From Brevundimonas diminuta (lineage in GTDB: Bacteria > Pseudomonadota > Alphaproteobacteria > Caulobacterales > Caulobacteraceae), in contig NZ_CP073063.1 of NCBI RefSeq assembly GCF_022654015.1, forward strand, positions 1,674,001 through 1,738,000: DNA of 64,000 bases, given 5' to 3'. Of this stretch, positions 17,964-63,910 are shown one piece after another. The position numbers were made by a program, and so were the translations under genes. How positions within the stretch are numbered: position 1 is the first letter of the stretch; each line of letters starts with the position of its first letter. The notes under the pieces were generated by a model. That model ran no database searches, had not been told where the DNA came from, and saw nothing but the letters and a program-made list of their open reading frames with translations.

Positions 17964-19502
17964 GTGAAACGGAGGATGCAGGCGCTTCGACACCATGTCA
18001 CGCGAATCAAACAGATAGGTCGCATGACTCTAGCCGGCGACAGTTACGAAGGCAGTCTGCTGGAGCCGGGGCCAGCCCTGTGGACGTCCGCCGTCGCGCA
18101 CCGCTTTTCGGTGCTGATGGAAAACGAGGCCTATTTCGACGCCCTGTCTTCGGCGATCCACAAGGCTCAACGCTCCATCGTGCTGCTGGGATGGCAGTTC
18201 GATCCACGCACCCATCTGGATCCGGAAACGCGGCCCGGCGACAAGTCGGCGGAAATCGGTCGCCAGCTGCGGATGCTGGTCAAGAAAAAGCCGGACCTGG
18301 ATGTGCGACTGCTCATCTGGAAATCGCCGCTGCTGATCGCCGCGTCGCAGGGCTTCTATCCGCACAAGGCGCAGCGCTGGTTCCGTAAGCGGATGGTGGA
18401 GTTTCGGCTCGATTCCCCCGGTCCTATCGGCGCCTGCCATCACCAGAAGGTGGTGGTTATCGACGACAAGGTGGCCTTCTGCGGCGGCGGCGACATCTCG
18501 ACCGATCGCTGGGATTCCGACGAACATCTGGACGGCGACCCGCGCCGCGCCCTACCGAGCGGCCTGATCTGCAAGGCGCGTCACGAGGTGATGAGCGTGA
18601 TGGACGGTCCTGCGGCGCGGGCGCTGGGCGATCTGGCGCGCGAACGCTGGTTCAAGGCGACGTGGGAGCGCACCATACCTGATGAGGTCGAGGACGATCC
18701 TTGGCCCGACGGGGTGCCGGTGCAGATGACCGACGTGCCCGTCGGCATCGCCCGCACAGAGCCGAAATGGTCTGGGCGTCAGGAGGTACGCGAGAGCGAA
18801 GCCTTGCATCTGGAATCAATTCGGCGCGCCAAGCGGCTGATCTATATTGAGAACCAGTATTTCACCTCGCCGGTCATCGCCGCCGCATTGGCCGAACGTC
18901 TGGCCGAGGTGGATGGGCCGCAGGTCATCGTCATCTCGACCGCCAAGAGCCCGAGTTGGTTCGACAGCATGACCATGGACACGGCCCGGGCCGAGGTGCT
19001 GCACCGGCTGGAGCAGGCGGACAAATACAACCGCTTCTTCGCCTTCGCCCCACTGACCGCCGACGGCGACCGGATTATCGTCCATGCCAAGGTGACCATC
19101 ATCGATGATCGGCTGCTGCGGATTGGGTCCACCAATCTGAATAACCGGTCGATGGGCCTGGATACCGAATGCGACATCGCCGCCGAGCCTGTCGATGCGG
19201 CGGGTCGGGCCTTCATTACGGCGCATCGTCACCGGACGATCGCCCATTGGCTGGGCGTTGCGACGGAGGACTATTCGGCGGTCGAGGGCGTATTCGGCTC
19301 GGTGGGGCAGGCGATCTGCAACTTCGAAACCGATCGGCTTAAGCCGCTGGGTTCAGAGCCCCCAACGCGCATCCAGCGGATGTTTGCGGAATGGCAGTTG
19401 GGCGACCCGACGTCGTCCAGCGATGCCTGGCGGCCGTGGAAGCGGCTGAACCGTTCGCAGCGCACCCGCCCCGCGTCCGAGGGCGGTCACGCGCCGGGCT
19501 GA
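17964..19502 (+). CDS. Phospholipase D / cardiolipin synthase-like protein
   Basis: This 512-residue protein carries two HKD motifs: HHQKVVVIDDKVAFCGGGD (around residue 157) and VHAKVTIIDDRLLRIGSTN (around residue 374). These are the paired active-site halves of the PLD superfamily. It has no clear signal peptide. Start choices are GTG 17964 (used), ATG 17976 or ATG 18024 (MTLAGDSYEG); the last is closest to where homology to PLD-like proteins should begin. The enzyme would cleave or exchange phosphodiester head groups of membrane phospholipids. Its 3' end overlaps the convergent endonuclease/exonuclease/phosphatase gene by 16 bp, a pairing often seen between these two families. Confidence 0.88.
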   Translation: MKRRMQALRHHVTRIKQIGRMTLAGDSYEGSLLEPGPALWTSAVAHRFSVLMENEAYFDALSSAIHKAQRSIVLLGWQFDPRTHLDPETRPGDKSAEIGRQLRMLVKKKPDLDVRLLIWKSPLLIAASQGFYPHKAQRWFRKRMVEFRLDSPGPIGACHHQKVVVIDDKVAFCGGGDISTDRWDSDEHLDGDPRRALPSGLICKARHEVMSVMDGPAARALGDLARERWFKATWERTIPDEVEDDPWPDGVPVQMTDVPVGIARTEPKWSGRQEVRESEALHLESIRRAKRLIYIENQYFTSPVIAAALAERLAEVDGPQVIVISTAKSPSWFDSMTMDTARAEVLHRLEQADKYNRFFAFAPLTADGDRIIVHAKVTIIDDRLLRIGSTNLNNRSMGLDTECDIAAEPVDAAGRAFITAHRHRTIAHWLGVATEDYSAVEGVFGSVGQAICNFETDRLKPLGSEPPTRIQRMFAEWQLGDPTSSSDAWRPWKRLNRSQRTRPASEGGHAPG

Positions 19503-57715: not shown

Positions 57716-57937
57716 CGATGTGGACGGTGTTCCTTTTCGGCTGCGAACGACCGAACGCAAATATCCAGTTTCCGGCCATGACTGAATGTCCGCTTATGGC
57801 GCAAAGCTGCCGGTCCTCCTTAGTGCAGAGTACCAAAAGTGCACTGACGGCGCTGTCCGGCGATCGCCACGCGCCCGATTCTGACGCACCTTAAGTTCAC
57901 GCTGCAGCGCGCCGTGAGTGCGCAGATCGGGGAGTGC

Positions 57938-58819
57938 ATGGATCTAGAAGAGATGGCCACCACCCTTGAAGCGAGCGGCGAGTACCGAATTCTGCGCAAG
58001 CTGCGACCGCGACCGGCGATCGACCTAGCCAGCGCCGAAGGCCTTAGAACGGGCCTCTTCGTTGACGTTGAGACGACAGGCCTGAACGCGCGCGACGACG
58101 AGATAATTGAGCTCGCGATGACGCGCTTCTTCTACAGCGCCGACGGTCGGGTCCATGGCGTCGGCGAGAGCTTTCAAGCATTTCGCGAGCCCTCGAAACC
58201 TATCCCCGCCGAAGTGACCGCTATCACCGGTCTGACCGACGCGATGGTCGCTGGCCACGCCATTGATCCGGCGGAAGTGGCGGCCTTCGCATCAGGTGCG
58301 GCCTTCGTCGCTGCGCACAACGCGTCGTTTGATCGGCGCTTTCTCGAGCGGTTCTGCGACGTGTTCAGAACCAAGCCTTGGGCTTGCTCAATGTCGCAGG
58401 TCGATTGGGCAGGGGAGGGGTATGAGGGCGTCAAGCTTGCGTATTTGGCCAGCTCAGCGGGGTTCTTCTACGACAAGCATCGCGCGGTGAACGATTGCGC
58501 CGCAGCCATCGAGCTGCTGTCGCTGCCGTTGCCTAACAGCAAGACGCCAGCACTGTCGCTGCTGCTCGAGGCGGCGCGTCGCCCGACCTGGCGTGTCCGA
58601 GCCGAAGGCGCGCCGTTCGATCTCAAAGATGTTCTGAAGGCGAGGGGCTATCGTTGGGACGACGGTTCGACCGGCGCGCCGCGCGCCTGGTTCATCGACG
58701 TCAGCGATGCCGTCCGCGACGAAGAGCTGCGCTTTCTACAGACCGAGATCTATCAGCGCGAGGTCGACCTTCGGCCGATCAAGATCGACGCCTTCGATCG
58801 CTTTTCTGAACGGTGCTGA
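57938..58819 (+). CDS. DnaQ-like 3'-5' exonuclease
   Basis: A 293-residue protein from ATG 57938 (GTG 57914 is an alternative). DEDDh exonuclease motifs are Exo I in GLFVDVETTGLNARDDEIIELAM, Exo II in VAAHNASFDRRFLERF and Exo III in DKHRAVNDCAAAIELL (His and Asp). A C-terminal region (WRVRAEGAPFDLKDVLKARGYRW, EELRFLQTEIYQRE) is shared by a family of stand-alone exonucleases in alphaproteobacteria. It could degrade single-stranded DNA or act with the neighbouring McrBC-like system. A 322-bp gap separates it from that system, so co-transcription is not assured. Confidence 0.85.
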   Translation: MDLEEMATTLEASGEYRILRKLRPRPAIDLASAEGLRTGLFVDVETTGLNARDDEIIELAMTRFFYSADGRVHGVGESFQAFREPSKPIPAEVTAITGLTDAMVAGHAIDPAEVAAFASGAAFVAAHNASFDRRFLERFCDVFRTKPWACSMSQVDWAGEGYEGVKLAYLASSAGFFYDKHRAVNDCAAAIELLSLPLPNSKTPALSLLLEAARRPTWRVRAEGAPFDLKDVLKARGYRWDDGSTGAPRAWFIDVSDAVRDEELRFLQTEIYQREVDLRPIKIDAFDRFSERC

Positions 58820-59141: not shown

Positions 59142-61250
59142 ATGACCATCGAACCTTCTGCGGCTGCTGCCGAAGATGCGCACCTCGCTGACGACAGTGG
59201 ACGTCTTGGAGAGCTGCGCGCCGCCTGGGGAGTCGCTGCTGGGGCCCCGATCGTGGTCGTTGGCCGCTTGCTCAGGCGCGAAGCACATAACGCCTCGTTC
59301 TACCTCCTCGAAGACCTGGAGCATCCCGTTAGCGGCGTTGGCCTGGCCTATCCGACTCAAGAGTCTCCTGCGTCAGCGTATGTTGCTCCAACCACTGCAA
59401 AACGTGTTCTCGAGCAGACGGACCGACATGGCGAGACTGTGTGGGCCCTAGCCGAACTGGTGCTGTCGCCAGCAGAAGAGCGCAGGAAGCGTCGTAACCC
59501 TCATGGGTGCATGGTGCGGCCGGGCACGCTGCGCCTGCTCGAGGAGATCCCGCCGGACTGGGGAGCAAACGTCGGGAGCGGCGAGCCCATTCGACTGCTC
59601 GCGGCCTCCGCCCGAGAGGCGCTTGAACGACATGCACTCAGCCGGCTGGCAGAAGCCGATGAGGCGCTGGCTGCGGTCCGCGCTGCACGCGACAACCAGC
59701 AGAGATTACTTGAAGAGGGAACACGTGCGCTTGCGTCGCTGGCAGATACGATTTCCGAAAAAGATGAGCAACTTGACGACCTCCACGAAACAATCGCCCT
59801 AGAGACCCGCACAATGGAAGAACGTTTTGGGCGTCTGTCTGACCTTTTAAGTAGGAGGGGGGATCGGCTGGTGGCGCTCGGTCTGATCGACCAGGACGAT
59901 CTTGAGGCGTTACAGCCAGGGACAGTTCCGGCAGTCGTCAGCAGCGAATCTAGGTTTTCCGGCGACTATTCCGAGCTTGCTCCGCTGCTTCAGGCTAAGC
60001 TTCGAGACGACGGGATGCTGTTTGCCCAGGCTCAGCTCCGCGACTTTGTAGCCCTCCTCCGAACCCACGACCTGGTCGTACTGGCGGGTGACTCCGGCAC
60101 AGGCAAAACCAGCCTCGTACGAACGGTTGCTGCGGCCATCGGCGCTCGCTGCTCAATTATTCCGGTTAAACCTAATTGGTCGGGACCTGAGGACTTGCTG
60201 GGCTATTACAACCCTCTGCAGCGAAGCTACCACTCAACGCCCTTCTTGCAGGCACTGCAGCGGGCGGAGGCCGAACCGGACAGGCTGCATTTCATCTGCC
60301 TCGACGAGATGAACCTTGCGCGGGTGGAATACTATTTCGCAGACTTTTTGAGCCTGCTCGAGAAGCGTTCAGAGCTTCCGATCATCCCGATCCATACCGC
60401 AGATGAGGAAAGACATACCCTAGTCGACAACGGCCTTTTCCTGGTGCTTGAAGCGGAAGCGCGGCGTCGTGCGGGCCTGGCCGACAATGCGACGCTGGAA
60501 GACCTGCTCCGGGATGAGACTGCGAACCGCATACTGCACCAGCTGGGTGGATTCACGGATGCGGAATCGGTTCTTTCTCATCACGGGCGTCTGCGACGGG
60601 CACTGACCGCGAGCATCAGAACGCCGACGGAGTTGAAGTTCCCAGAAAACGTCAGGATTTTTGGTGCGATCAACGTGGATGAGACCACGCATTATCTATC
60701 GGCCAAAGTCCTAGACCGAGTGCACGTGATGCGGTTCACCAATCCGTCACTAACCGACTGGGACGCACTAGAAGCCGAAGCAGATGCCTACCCAGAGGCC
60801 GAGCGCTCTCCGTCGTTGCGCCTCGAGCCCGAACAGCTCGGAGTTCGCTCAGACTACCCAGCCTTCGACCGCAGGAAGCCGGAAACGGCGTTTCTGCTGA
60901 AACTTGTTCGCGACTATCTCGATCCTCTCGGTGTCGAGTTTGGCTTGCGTGCACTTCGCCAGTCGCTTGGCTATTTGGAGGCGGCCACGCTCGCGGGCAT
61001 CGACCCACAGACCGCTCGCAACAATGTCATGCTTCACAAGGTGCTCCCGAAGCTGACAATGGATACATCCCGCATCGGCGCGAACGGACTTTCTCGGCGA
61101 GAGATCCTAGTCAGCCTGAGAGACTACCTGGATACTGGTATTGACCGCGCAAAGCTCTCGCCTGGTGCTGATGACTGCGTGGCGATGTTGGATCGTCTGA
61201 TCGCCGCCGCGGAAGGCAATAATGGGATCGCCAGCTATTGGCTTCGTTGA
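59142..61250 (+). CDS. McrB-like AAA+ ATPase with a coiled-coil segment
   Basis: This 702-residue protein has an N-terminal domain (about 1-150) not recognised. A coiled coil spans about 155-240 (LERHALSRLAEADEALAAVR, ISEKDEQLDDLHETIALE). The AAA+ core has Walker A GDSGTGKT at about 316-323, Walker B LHFICLDEMNLARVEYYFAD at about 382-401 and a sensor segment RIFGAINVDETTHYLSAKV at about 505-523. LDEMN-AR-E-YF-D and N-x-DETT are marks of the McrB-like family of type IV restriction and related conflict systems. Its stop overlaps the next gene's TTG start (TTGA), so the nuclease partner is coupled. It probably moves DNA or RNA to the partner nuclease. Confidence 0.85.
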   Translation: MTIEPSAAAAEDAHLADDSGRLGELRAAWGVAAGAPIVVVGRLLRREAHNASFYLLEDLEHPVSGVGLAYPTQESPASAYVAPTTAKRVLEQTDRHGETVWALAELVLSPAEERRKRRNPHGCMVRPGTLRLLEEIPPDWGANVGSGEPIRLLAASAREALERHALSRLAEADEALAAVRAARDNQQRLLEEGTRALASLADTISEKDEQLDDLHETIALETRTMEERFGRLSDLLSRRGDRLVALGLIDQDDLEALQPGTVPAVVSSESRFSGDYSELAPLLQAKLRDDGMLFAQAQLRDFVALLRTHDLVVLAGDSGTGKTSLVRTVAAAIGARCSIIPVKPNWSGPEDLLGYYNPLQRSYHSTPFLQALQRAEAEPDRLHFICLDEMNLARVEYYFADFLSLLEKRSELPIIPIHTADEERHTLVDNGLFLVLEAEARRRAGLADNATLEDLLRDETANRILHQLGGFTDAESVLSHHGRLRRALTASIRTPTELKFPENVRIFGAINVDETTHYLSAKVLDRVHVMRFTNPSLTDWDALEAEADAYPEAERSPSLRLEPEQLGVRSDYPAFDRRKPETAFLLKLVRDYLDPLGVEFGLRALRQSLGYLEAATLAGIDPQTARNNVMLHKVLPKLTMDTSRIGANGLSRREILVSLRDYLDTGIDRAKLSPGADDCVAMLDRLIAAAEGNNGIASYWLR

Positions 61251-63910
61251 AGCGCAACGGCATTGCGGCCCGATACCTTCGCATTGAGTGGCAGGGGCCC
61301 GGCCGCGCGCGAACTGTCGAGTGTGCACCGGAACCAGTGGAGATCGACATCGGGTTGGACGATGGTCTGCGCCTGGAGGTTGACATATTCCCGCACGACC
61401 ACGTCTGGCTTGGTCTGCAGTTCAATGGCGGGTTGGAAGACGCCGCTCCGGTCTGGAAGACGATTGACGGAAAAGATGTTCCGCTGCTCTCCGTCTGTGA
61501 CGACGGCACACGCTGGTGGGTCGCAGCTACGGACTGGGATGTCGAGGCGAAGCGACACCATAATCTACTAAGTCGAAGTCTTGGATCGTTCCGAATAGAG
61601 GGCAGCGGTGTCGTGCTGGACGTCGTCGTTGTGCTTCATGAGCGCGGACGGGTTGTACTTGAAGATTATCTACGCGACTTTCAGGACGACCTCCTGTGGC
61701 TCGCGCTCGGCTTCGACGGTGCGGGTGCCGTCGACGCTCCGGACAAGCCACTTGTCGCCGCGCTTGATGCCTTCGCCGCTGCGGCGGCTGGCATAGCCAG
61801 ATCTCCAGCGACCGTAGTCCGGGAGCGCATAGCGGAGGCACGGGCCGGTCGCCTTCGCCCCAACGCCGCGACCTTTCGCCGGCACGCCCGTGATCCGGAG
61901 GCTTCTCGCCTGCCGGGCCGATTGGCGGAAGAGTGCGCCGACACACCAGATAATCGGTTCTTGAGATATATGGCGGGAGTCTGTCTCAGCCTCGCCCGTG
62001 GCCTCGGCGGGACCGCCGGACGCCAAGCCAATGTTCTTGAAAGGCGCGCTGTCACTGAATCCCTACGCGCGGCAGCCTTCAGCCGGCTTGAGCCAAGACG
62101 TGTCGACCCGGGCGTGTTCGACAATCAGTTAGCCGAACTGGAAACGGGTCTTGCAGATGTACGGCGCTCAGTGGGCGAAGTTCAGAGCGTGACCAATGCA
62201 CCGGAGGGACGGTTTCCGATCCGCATCGGAAACGGCTTCGGTAAAAAGCCCGGCCACTACTTCTACGACCGCCTAGGCGATCAGCCATCCGGTGGCGTGG
62301 ATTTTCGAGTCATGTGCATTCCTCCGGCGGTGGAAAGCGCAATTTTAGCCGTCAGGCACTTCTGTCGGGATTTCACTTTTTCCGGCTCCGCAGAATCGAG
62401 CGTCAAAAAGACTAGCAACGATCGGCCCTACCGCTTTCTCGACCTTAGTCGGATAGCCAAAGTCGAGCCGGATACAACGGCCGTTGATAACAAGCGTCTC
62501 AAGCGCGACGGGCTGGCGCGAAACGGATGGTTGGCGCCGCTCAGCTCAAGAGAACGACTTGAAGCTTTGGCAGCGTCGCGTACCGCCGAGCGTCGTGGTG
62601 CCGTGCTGAAAACCATGGCGGACCGGACAAATCGGCTCGCTGCGGCGCTGGATCGCTGCGCTTCTACACTTGTCCGAACCGAGGCCGAACTGGCCAGGCG
62701 CGGGGTTGGGCGTGATGCGCAGATGCCCACGGGCGTACGCTACAGCATGCACCCCGGCTATGCGTCCTGTCTGTCGGCCTTTCGAATGGTGGAAACGCTT
62801 GCGCGCGGCGACGGGTTGGGGACGAGCGCTCTGGATGCGGTCGATCGGGTCGGCACGCTGCACGCAAGTGCGCTTTACGAACGGTGGTGCCTTGTAAAAA
62901 TCCTCGCCGTCCTCGTGGACGACTATCGGTTCGAGGCTGAGCGCGACTGGAAGGAGCGGCTCATTTCCGCGGTGACGGGTGCGCCGGAACCGTTCGCGCT
63001 TAGGCTTTACCGACCCGATATCGAACTAGGCGCGGTCCTTGAAATCCAGCCGCTGTTGAAAAATGGGCGACGGCCGGACTTTCGTCTTCGGTTTGCACAC
63101 GTCGCACGCGACGCGCTGGGAGCGGATGATGGTGCTCGCGCTGAGTTCGACCTTTGCTTATTCGATGGGGTTACGGGGCTGGTTGCTGACGCCAAGTTTC
63201 GCACTCGGTGGCGCGCCGGGGAGCTTTCAGACATCGCCGCGGCGCTGGTCAGGGAGAAGCGCTACGACCAGGAAGGCGATCGCGTTTTCGTGCTTCATCC
63301 CGTGCCCACCGCAATGTCGCGGCCTACATCTCCGCTCGATTGGGGACCGCACTGCGACTATGGACATAATCGGGGAGAGAACCATCGCAGCGGCACGGTT
63401 CTCCTCGCGCCGGCCGCTGGTGAAGGCGATGCGCGCAAGCACCTTCGTCGATTGATCGGGTTAGAGCTTCAGGCGCGGTTTCCTAAACCAGAGCCAGTCG
63501 CTTGGGACGTCAGTCCAAGGCTGGAGTTCGAAATCGCGGCCACCGACCGCTCCGAGAGCTGTCCAAGAACCCGCGGCTCCGGTCGCGCCCAGGCGTCCGA
63601 AGACGCCTGCTCGTGCAGACAGACTGGATGGTCAAGCGCGAGCTTCTGCCTTGCATGCGGCGAGAAGCACGCGGTCGGTCGCATCACCGCGACATGCACC
63701 TCAGCAGGGCAGCGCTATTGGACCTTCAGCTGTGAGGCCTGTGGGTTTCAAACCAAGCGCACTCACTGTTACGGTTGTTCGGCCGTTCTATTTAAGAACT
63801 CTCTCGAATATACTTATCACCGAACAGCAGCGGATCAGATCACGAACGTGATTTGCCCAGACTGCGGCAAGTATTTTGATGAGGAGTGGGCTGCCGCTTC
63901 CCAGAGCTAG
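61247..63910 (+). CDS. McrC-like (DUF2357-type) nuclease with C-terminal zinc-ribbon region
   Basis: An 887-residue protein from TTG 61247; no ATG lies near, and TTG 61238 is the alternative. The N-terminal part (LRLEVDIFPHDHVWLGLQFNGGLED) and helical middle resemble the DUF2357 partners of McrB-like ATPases. At about 632-652 a PD-(D/E)xK-type site is visible: AEFDLCLFDGVTGLVADAKF, with Asp and D-x-K. The last 90 residues hold at least four Cys pairs (FCLACGEKH, FSCEACGF, HCYGCSAV, VICPDCGKYF), a probable zinc-ribbon region for target or partner recognition. With the ATPase it forms an active-transport nuclease system, probably anti-phage. Confidence 0.82.
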   Translation: MKRNGIAARYLRIEWQGPGRARTVECAPEPVEIDIGLDDGLRLEVDIFPHDHVWLGLQFNGGLEDAAPVWKTIDGKDVPLLSVCDDGTRWWVAATDWDVEAKRHHNLLSRSLGSFRIEGSGVVLDVVVVLHERGRVVLEDYLRDFQDDLLWLALGFDGAGAVDAPDKPLVAALDAFAAAAAGIARSPATVVRERIAEARAGRLRPNAATFRRHARDPEASRLPGRLAEECADTPDNRFLRYMAGVCLSLARGLGGTAGRQANVLERRAVTESLRAAAFSRLEPRRVDPGVFDNQLAELETGLADVRRSVGEVQSVTNAPEGRFPIRIGNGFGKKPGHYFYDRLGDQPSGGVDFRVMCIPPAVESAILAVRHFCRDFTFSGSAESSVKKTSNDRPYRFLDLSRIAKVEPDTTAVDNKRLKRDGLARNGWLAPLSSRERLEALAASRTAERRGAVLKTMADRTNRLAAALDRCASTLVRTEAELARRGVGRDAQMPTGVRYSMHPGYASCLSAFRMVETLARGDGLGTSALDAVDRVGTLHASALYERWCLVKILAVLVDDYRFEAERDWKERLISAVTGAPEPFALRLYRPDIELGAVLEIQPLLKNGRRPDFRLRFAHVARDALGADDGARAEFDLCLFDGVTGLVADAKFRTRWRAGELSDIAAALVREKRYDQEGDRVFVLHPVPTAMSRPTSPLDWGPHCDYGHNRGENHRSGTVLLAPAAGEGDARKHLRRLIGLELQARFPKPEPVAWDVSPRLEFEIAATDRSESCPRTRGSGRAQASEDACSCRQTGWSSASFCLACGEKHAVGRITATCTSAGQRYWTFSCEACGFQTKRTHCYGCSAVLFKNSLEYTYHRTAADQITNVICPDCGKYFDEEWAAASQS

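Follow-up and report, generated by a model that had tools for sequence, protein, structure and literature searches.

A two-gene McrBC-like locus of Brevundimonas diminuta that probably represents a Type I-A CoCoNuT

Near the end of a 64,000-nucleotide stretch of Brevundimonas diminuta DNA (contig NZ_CP073063.1, positions 1,674,001 to 1,738,000; hereafter the window), two adjoining genes encode an McrB-like AAA+ ATPase and a nuclease of the DUF2357 type. Is this pair a defence system of a new kind or a known one, and what might it do? A preliminary description had assigned the two reading frames, both of which are indeed present, to the coiled-coil nuclease tandems (CoCoNuTs), and had suggested that an unrecognised N-terminal domain on the ATPase and a zinc tail on the nuclease might mark a variant not yet classified. 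We find that the pair is a clean further example of a published, little-tested McrBC-like branch and not a system of a new kind. It is probably (at about 0.82) a two-gene Type I-A CoCoNuT (CnuB plus CnuC), the system held by PADLOC as PDC-M26, a match made on published feature descriptions and not on the reference sequences ROR86958.1 and APL73566.1.

The gene pair and its match to PDC-M26

The CnuB-like gene (59142..61250, + strand) encodes an AAA+ NTPase of 702 aa and is followed on the same strand by the CnuC-like nuclease gene (61247..63910). A longer nuclease frame (61238-63910, +) begins at TTG 61238, encodes 890 aa and overlaps the ATPase gene. Most nuclease relatives have starts that align at residue 4 or 5 of this form, so that TTG 61247, which is its residue 4 and leaves a 4-base overlap with the ATPase stop, is the likelier start and gives a protein of 887 aa. 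The two adjoining genes match the A and B models of PDC-M26 along nearly their full length and with no difference seen: PDC-M26A covers residues 8-700 of the ATPase (E = 2e-224) and PDC-M26B covers residues 8-884 of the nuclease (E = 1.7e-264). PDC-M26 is a candidate defence system in PADLOC-DB 2.0.0, for which the PADLOC output states no mechanism. A link between this name and Type I-A CoCoNuT was not found in the literature searched, from which 'PDC-M26' itself is absent; the assignment proposed here joins the two under one identity.

Pfam places AAA_5 on the ATPase and no significant family on the window's nuclease; PF09823 (DUF2357) is found on P0008, a nuclease relative at 41% identity. 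A total of 1385 proteins scored at E <= 0.001 as ATPase relatives, and some of the best 120 of these 1385 are annotated as McrB family protein. Conservation was read from a 76-row ATPase alignment, which drew on 60 of these 120 proteins and on 15 of 19 loci, and from a 25-row nuclease alignment that left out P0001 (the genome's own protein), L026 and the contig-end loci L019, L020 and L030.

The nuclease gene lies next to the ATPase gene on the same strand in 21 of the 22 foreign loci that carry a relative of the ATPase (L012-L033). The remaining locus, L029, stops inside the ATPase, and L019, L020 and L030 end inside the nuclease. In Aromatoleum anaerobium (L022:10103-11227) a DDE transposase gene stands between cnuB and cnuC. 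Any other family is present in at most 4 of the 24 locus records compared (open reading frames of at least 100 aa; flanks up to 8 kb, some shorter), so the system appears to consist of cnuB and cnuC only, as in Type I-A. Two families do reach four loci, a phage integrase (by its member in L026) and the strawberry notch family (by its annotation in L032).

Domain architecture compared with Type I-A

Two-gene layouts are attributed to Types I-A and I-C in the excerpts of Bell et al. 2024 (PMC11090510) used here; statements drawn from the other papers cited are likewise limited to excerpts. In Type I-A, CnuB has an OB-like domain and a coiled coil without YTH. CnuC starts with an Ig-like domain, carries OB and coiled-coil insertions in its DUF2357 part, and further has a PD-(D/E)xK domain and a zinc ribbon. 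What separates Type I-A from every other CoCoNuT is a helical insertion placed between the Walker B and NxD motifs (PMC11090510).

The window's ATPase carries NxD (INVDE) and not the NxxD signature of classical McrBC. Its nucleotide site (60087..60683, +) comprises Walker A at residues 316-323, Walker B at 384-391 and the NxD motif at 510-514. Thirteen of 15 positions are invariant in the 76 rows, the others being T323 (T or S) and E514 (E or D), while N511 and D513 are present in 76/76. Between Walker B and NxD lies an insert (helices 420-493; 60399..60620, +) that is helical in the AlphaFold2 model, and the spacing of the two motifs is 124 residues in all 76 chosen relatives compared with 55-90 in nine other McrB-like proteins. 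Ahead of the core, a single 97-residue helix (149-245; 59586..59876, +) reads as a coiled coil from both the structure model and its heptad periodicity (z up to 4.2). The N-terminal domain described earlier as unrecognised is modelled as a five-strand barrel (37-125; 59250..59516, +) whose order, b-b-b-helix-b-b, is that of an OB fold, as given for Type I CnuB (PMC11090510). From this strand order the barrel may be a counterpart of the CSD-like OB fold of Type I CnuB. The Pfam list for the ATPase contains neither a YTH nor an EVE family, and the gap from barrel to coil is only 23 residues.

The nuclease, numbered here in its 890-aa form, begins in the structure model with an Ig-like beta sandwich (5-135; 61250..61642, +). 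This leads into a DUF2357 or McrC N-terminal body (about 139-520; 61652..62797, +) in which the model places an OB-like insertion at 317-412 and a long helix at 437-487. McrC tops the fold comparison, with the OB-like barrel inserted in its DUF2357 body, and the Ig-like domain and this barrel may correspond to the equivalent parts of Type I-A. A PD-(D/E)xK nuclease domain follows (541-746; 62858..63475, +), recognised by conservation and fold comparison. Its residues E548, D614, D651 and K653, the last two within a D-A-K motif, are invariant in 25/25 nuclease rows and are the predicted catalytic residues of the PD-(D/E)xK motif. At the C-terminus, four CxxC pairs (803-877; 63644..63868, +) supply eight cysteines, likewise invariant in all 25 rows, which probably form two zinc-binding ribbons. 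The nearest relatives (P0002-P0007) have in common a longer stretch before the ribbons, where model confidence is low.

The pair has in common with Type I-A the two genes, NxD, the coiled coil of a CnuB without YTH, the helical insert, and the DUF2357 body, PD-(D/E)xK residues and probable zinc ribbon of CnuC (PMC11090510); the OB-like domains of both proteins and the Ig-like domain of CnuC are weaker or indirect counterparts. The coiled-coil ATPase, the DUF2357-type nuclease and the tail with four cysteine pairs were all correctly read beforehand, and the NxD motif, the 97-residue helix, the McrC body and the insert agree with a CoCoNuT. A variant still to be classified is not supported: the zinc ribbon, the Ig-like domain, the OB insertion in DUF2357 and the helical insert ahead of NxD all figure in the published account of Type I or Type I-A (PMC11090510), and PADLOC already has models for PDC-M26A and PDC-M26B.

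Distribution, phylogeny and other readings

Among 61 genomes searched (the genome itself, 36 of the same genus and 24 of the same order), PDC-M26A is found in this genome only. One of 14 control genomes, Deinobacterium chartae, also matches it. Matches occur in 10 of 398 genomes sampled from the phylum, 3 of them full length, and in 2 of 385 sampled from the class, where the genome's own is the single full-length one. Among 72,556 plasmid records 327 match; 215 of these 327 come from Klebsiella, and in 3 the match extends over 80% or more of the query. The distribution is patchy and very sporadic. E. coli, too, has a distant relative of the pair, with identities of about 36% and 23%, on a plasmid and between insertion sequences (L031:6137-10917); 25 of 5426 complete E. 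coli genomes contain at least 80% of this related pair, and the Klebsiella, Salmonella and Citrobacter plasmid rows listed resemble it.

An NTP-driven nuclease of the host, serving repair or RNA surveillance in place of defence, is an improbable reading of such a gene pair. It draws on the fact that a phage test of the PDC-M26 family was not found in the literature searched, and it sits poorly with the sporadic occurrence, with carriage on plasmids (327 matching records, 3 of them with at least 80% query coverage) and with defence genes as neighbours. Of ten large neighbours chosen, three gave Type I restriction (L028), DISARM DrmD (L016) and HerA (L029), two others gave weaker NERD and mads matches, and the remaining five gave no defence family; on a Massilia plasmid, dndABCD adjoins the pair.

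A second reading takes the locus for a classical McrBC pair, a Type IV restriction system that cuts modified DNA through an unusual reader domain. The proteins do match McrB in sequence (E = 8.1e-05) and McrC first in the nuclease fold list, their gene order is that of McrBC, and they share with E. coli K-12 McrBC the AAA+ McrB fold and the DUF2357-PD-(D/E)xK body of McrC. The K-12 system differs, however, in its NxxD motif and its Walker B-sensor spacing of 55, and as described in PMC11090510 it is without coiled coil, Ig-like domain and zinc ribbons. A tree of McrB-like GTPase domains was built from 27 rows with the Walker B-NxD insert excluded and L056 omitted for its short length; L013 and L055 probably come from a single genome, which makes one row a copy and leaves 26 different ones. 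In this tree the two NxxD rows part from the 25 NxD rows with support of 100/100. The genome moreover has a separate NxxD McrBC about 7 kb beyond the pair. Placement in classical McrBC, named in the preliminary description as an outcome that would overturn it, is disfavoured by the NxD motif, and we regard this reading as quite unlikely.

The phylogeny proposed in that description thus sets the pair apart from classical McrBC, but it is not sufficient to establish a CoCoNuT; that assignment rests on the insert and the domain layout. Among the NxD proteins the window's ATPase family is a single group (90/80), Type II/III-like rows form another (86/79) and the remaining NxD rows a third (93/88). 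Group labels other than that of the window's family were assigned here, those of L049 and L052 by layout alone; the families behind them are a methyltransferase near L051 and L054, MrcB_N in L057 and a helicase in L048 and L050. Membership in another NxD branch, methyltransferase-linked or CoCoPALM, gains from the unsettled fork between these groups but is the least probable reading of all, because any given neighbouring gene family is found at 4 of the 24 locus records at most, so that a methyltransferase is no constant partner (14 flanking genes of foreign loci were examined for their families), the three rows labelled methyltransferase-linked (L051, L052 and L054) lack the insert and have a spacing of 56-60, and the CnuC layout fits Type I-A.

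Type II CoCoNuTs, represented by L048 and L049 and labelled here from layout, likewise have an NxD CnuB, extended by a long region ahead of its core, and a CnuC-like gene after it. Both lack the insert between Walker B and NxD, which are 61 residues apart, and L048 is preceded by VWA, PP2C, kinase and SF1 helicase genes, with genes of similar sizes in L049. Both loci are Type II-like operons; in L048 (92-11818), for which alone the families were read, the order is VWA, PP2C, kinase, SF1 helicase, a 500-aa protein, CnuB-like and CnuC-like. At L057:4980-9353, a DUF2357-PDDEXK_7 protein adjoins an NxD ATPase that carries MrcB_N and has Walker B and NxD 90 residues apart; this is an NxD McrBC whose N-terminal domain is of another kind. 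Genome G792 (L053, L054) combines a PDC-M26-like pair with another NxD McrB-like ATPase, which lies about 8 kb further on and has a methyltransferase-like gene in its vicinity.

Several points count against the pair being a Type I-A defence system. The nuclease has four CxxC pairs, one of them CPxC, where PMC11090510 describes CPxC motifs (three; two in Type II). The long helix 437-487 shows little heptad signal (z 1.7) and is a weak counterpart of the coiled coil expected in Type I-A, and in the tree the branching order of the three NxD groups is left as a fork on long branches. As to function, a plasmid-borne Type II CoCoNuT was reported to protect PAO1 from at least one phage (PMC12735699); contrary to this, in a panel of Pseudomonas CoCoNut_1-C correlated with susceptibility to phage, which that study considers in the light of abortive infection (PMC12447246).

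Possible mechanism and genomic surroundings

The pair is most likely a nuclease defence driven by NTP, and we lean slightly towards the following mechanism. By analogy with McrBC, the NxD AAA+ cores of CnuB would form hexamers that sit on the DUF2357 stalk of CnuC, a contact that would stimulate NTP hydrolysis. The CnuB coiled coil could provide further assembly. The OB-like domains of both subunits and the zinc ribbons may bind invader nucleic acid, and NTP turnover on the bound nucleic acid would then allow the PD-(D/E)xK domain of CnuC to cut, again as in McrBC. Phage DNA or RNA are both possible targets, and contact with RNA or components of translation is conceivable from the proposals of Bell et al. 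(PMC11090510). A more speculative scheme, which we consider rather doubtful, is that this McrBC descendant no longer reads modified DNA and senses phage-altered RNA or translation complexes through its OB-like domains and two-ribbon tail, cutting RNA or both host and phage nucleic acid abortively, perhaps to back up the classical McrBC nearby. No experiments on Type I-A were found in the literature searched, including the excerpts of PMC12735699, PMC12458937, PMC12447246, PMC13251782, PMC12554148 and PMC12707154. For this reason, and because of its two-gene layout, an intact and conserved CoCoNuT of this kind is among the simplest settings in which to ask whether DNA or RNA is cut.

Just upstream of the pair, positions 57914-58819 encode a DEDDh 3'-5' exonuclease (NCBIfam PRK09182 family). 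It is whole in none of 41 same-genus genomes besides its own, and a 110-residue stretch occurs in one. The McrC gene of the second McrBC is likewise private among these 41, with 34-44-base DNA matches (E about 6e-4) in three. Taken together, the PDC-M26 pair, the classical McrBC and the exonuclease look like an accessory island.

The classical McrBC lies outside the window (L009:14732-18149; C1:1744732-1748149); its ATPase has an NxxD motif (MNTADRS) and its McrC matches PF10117 (E = 2.4e-90). The accessory cluster around it, also outside the window (L009:8136-13673 and 18180-18998), encodes a UDG-like protein, a second DEDDh exonuclease with a PDC-S48 match and a metallo-beta-lactamase with RMMBL, together with an OGG-like protein below the cut-off and a protein with a DUF4357 match (below the cut-off) and a PDC-S14 match. 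Further downstream of the island (L010:12950-14698, outside the window) are TerC/DUF475 and TerD genes of the tellurium-resistance type.
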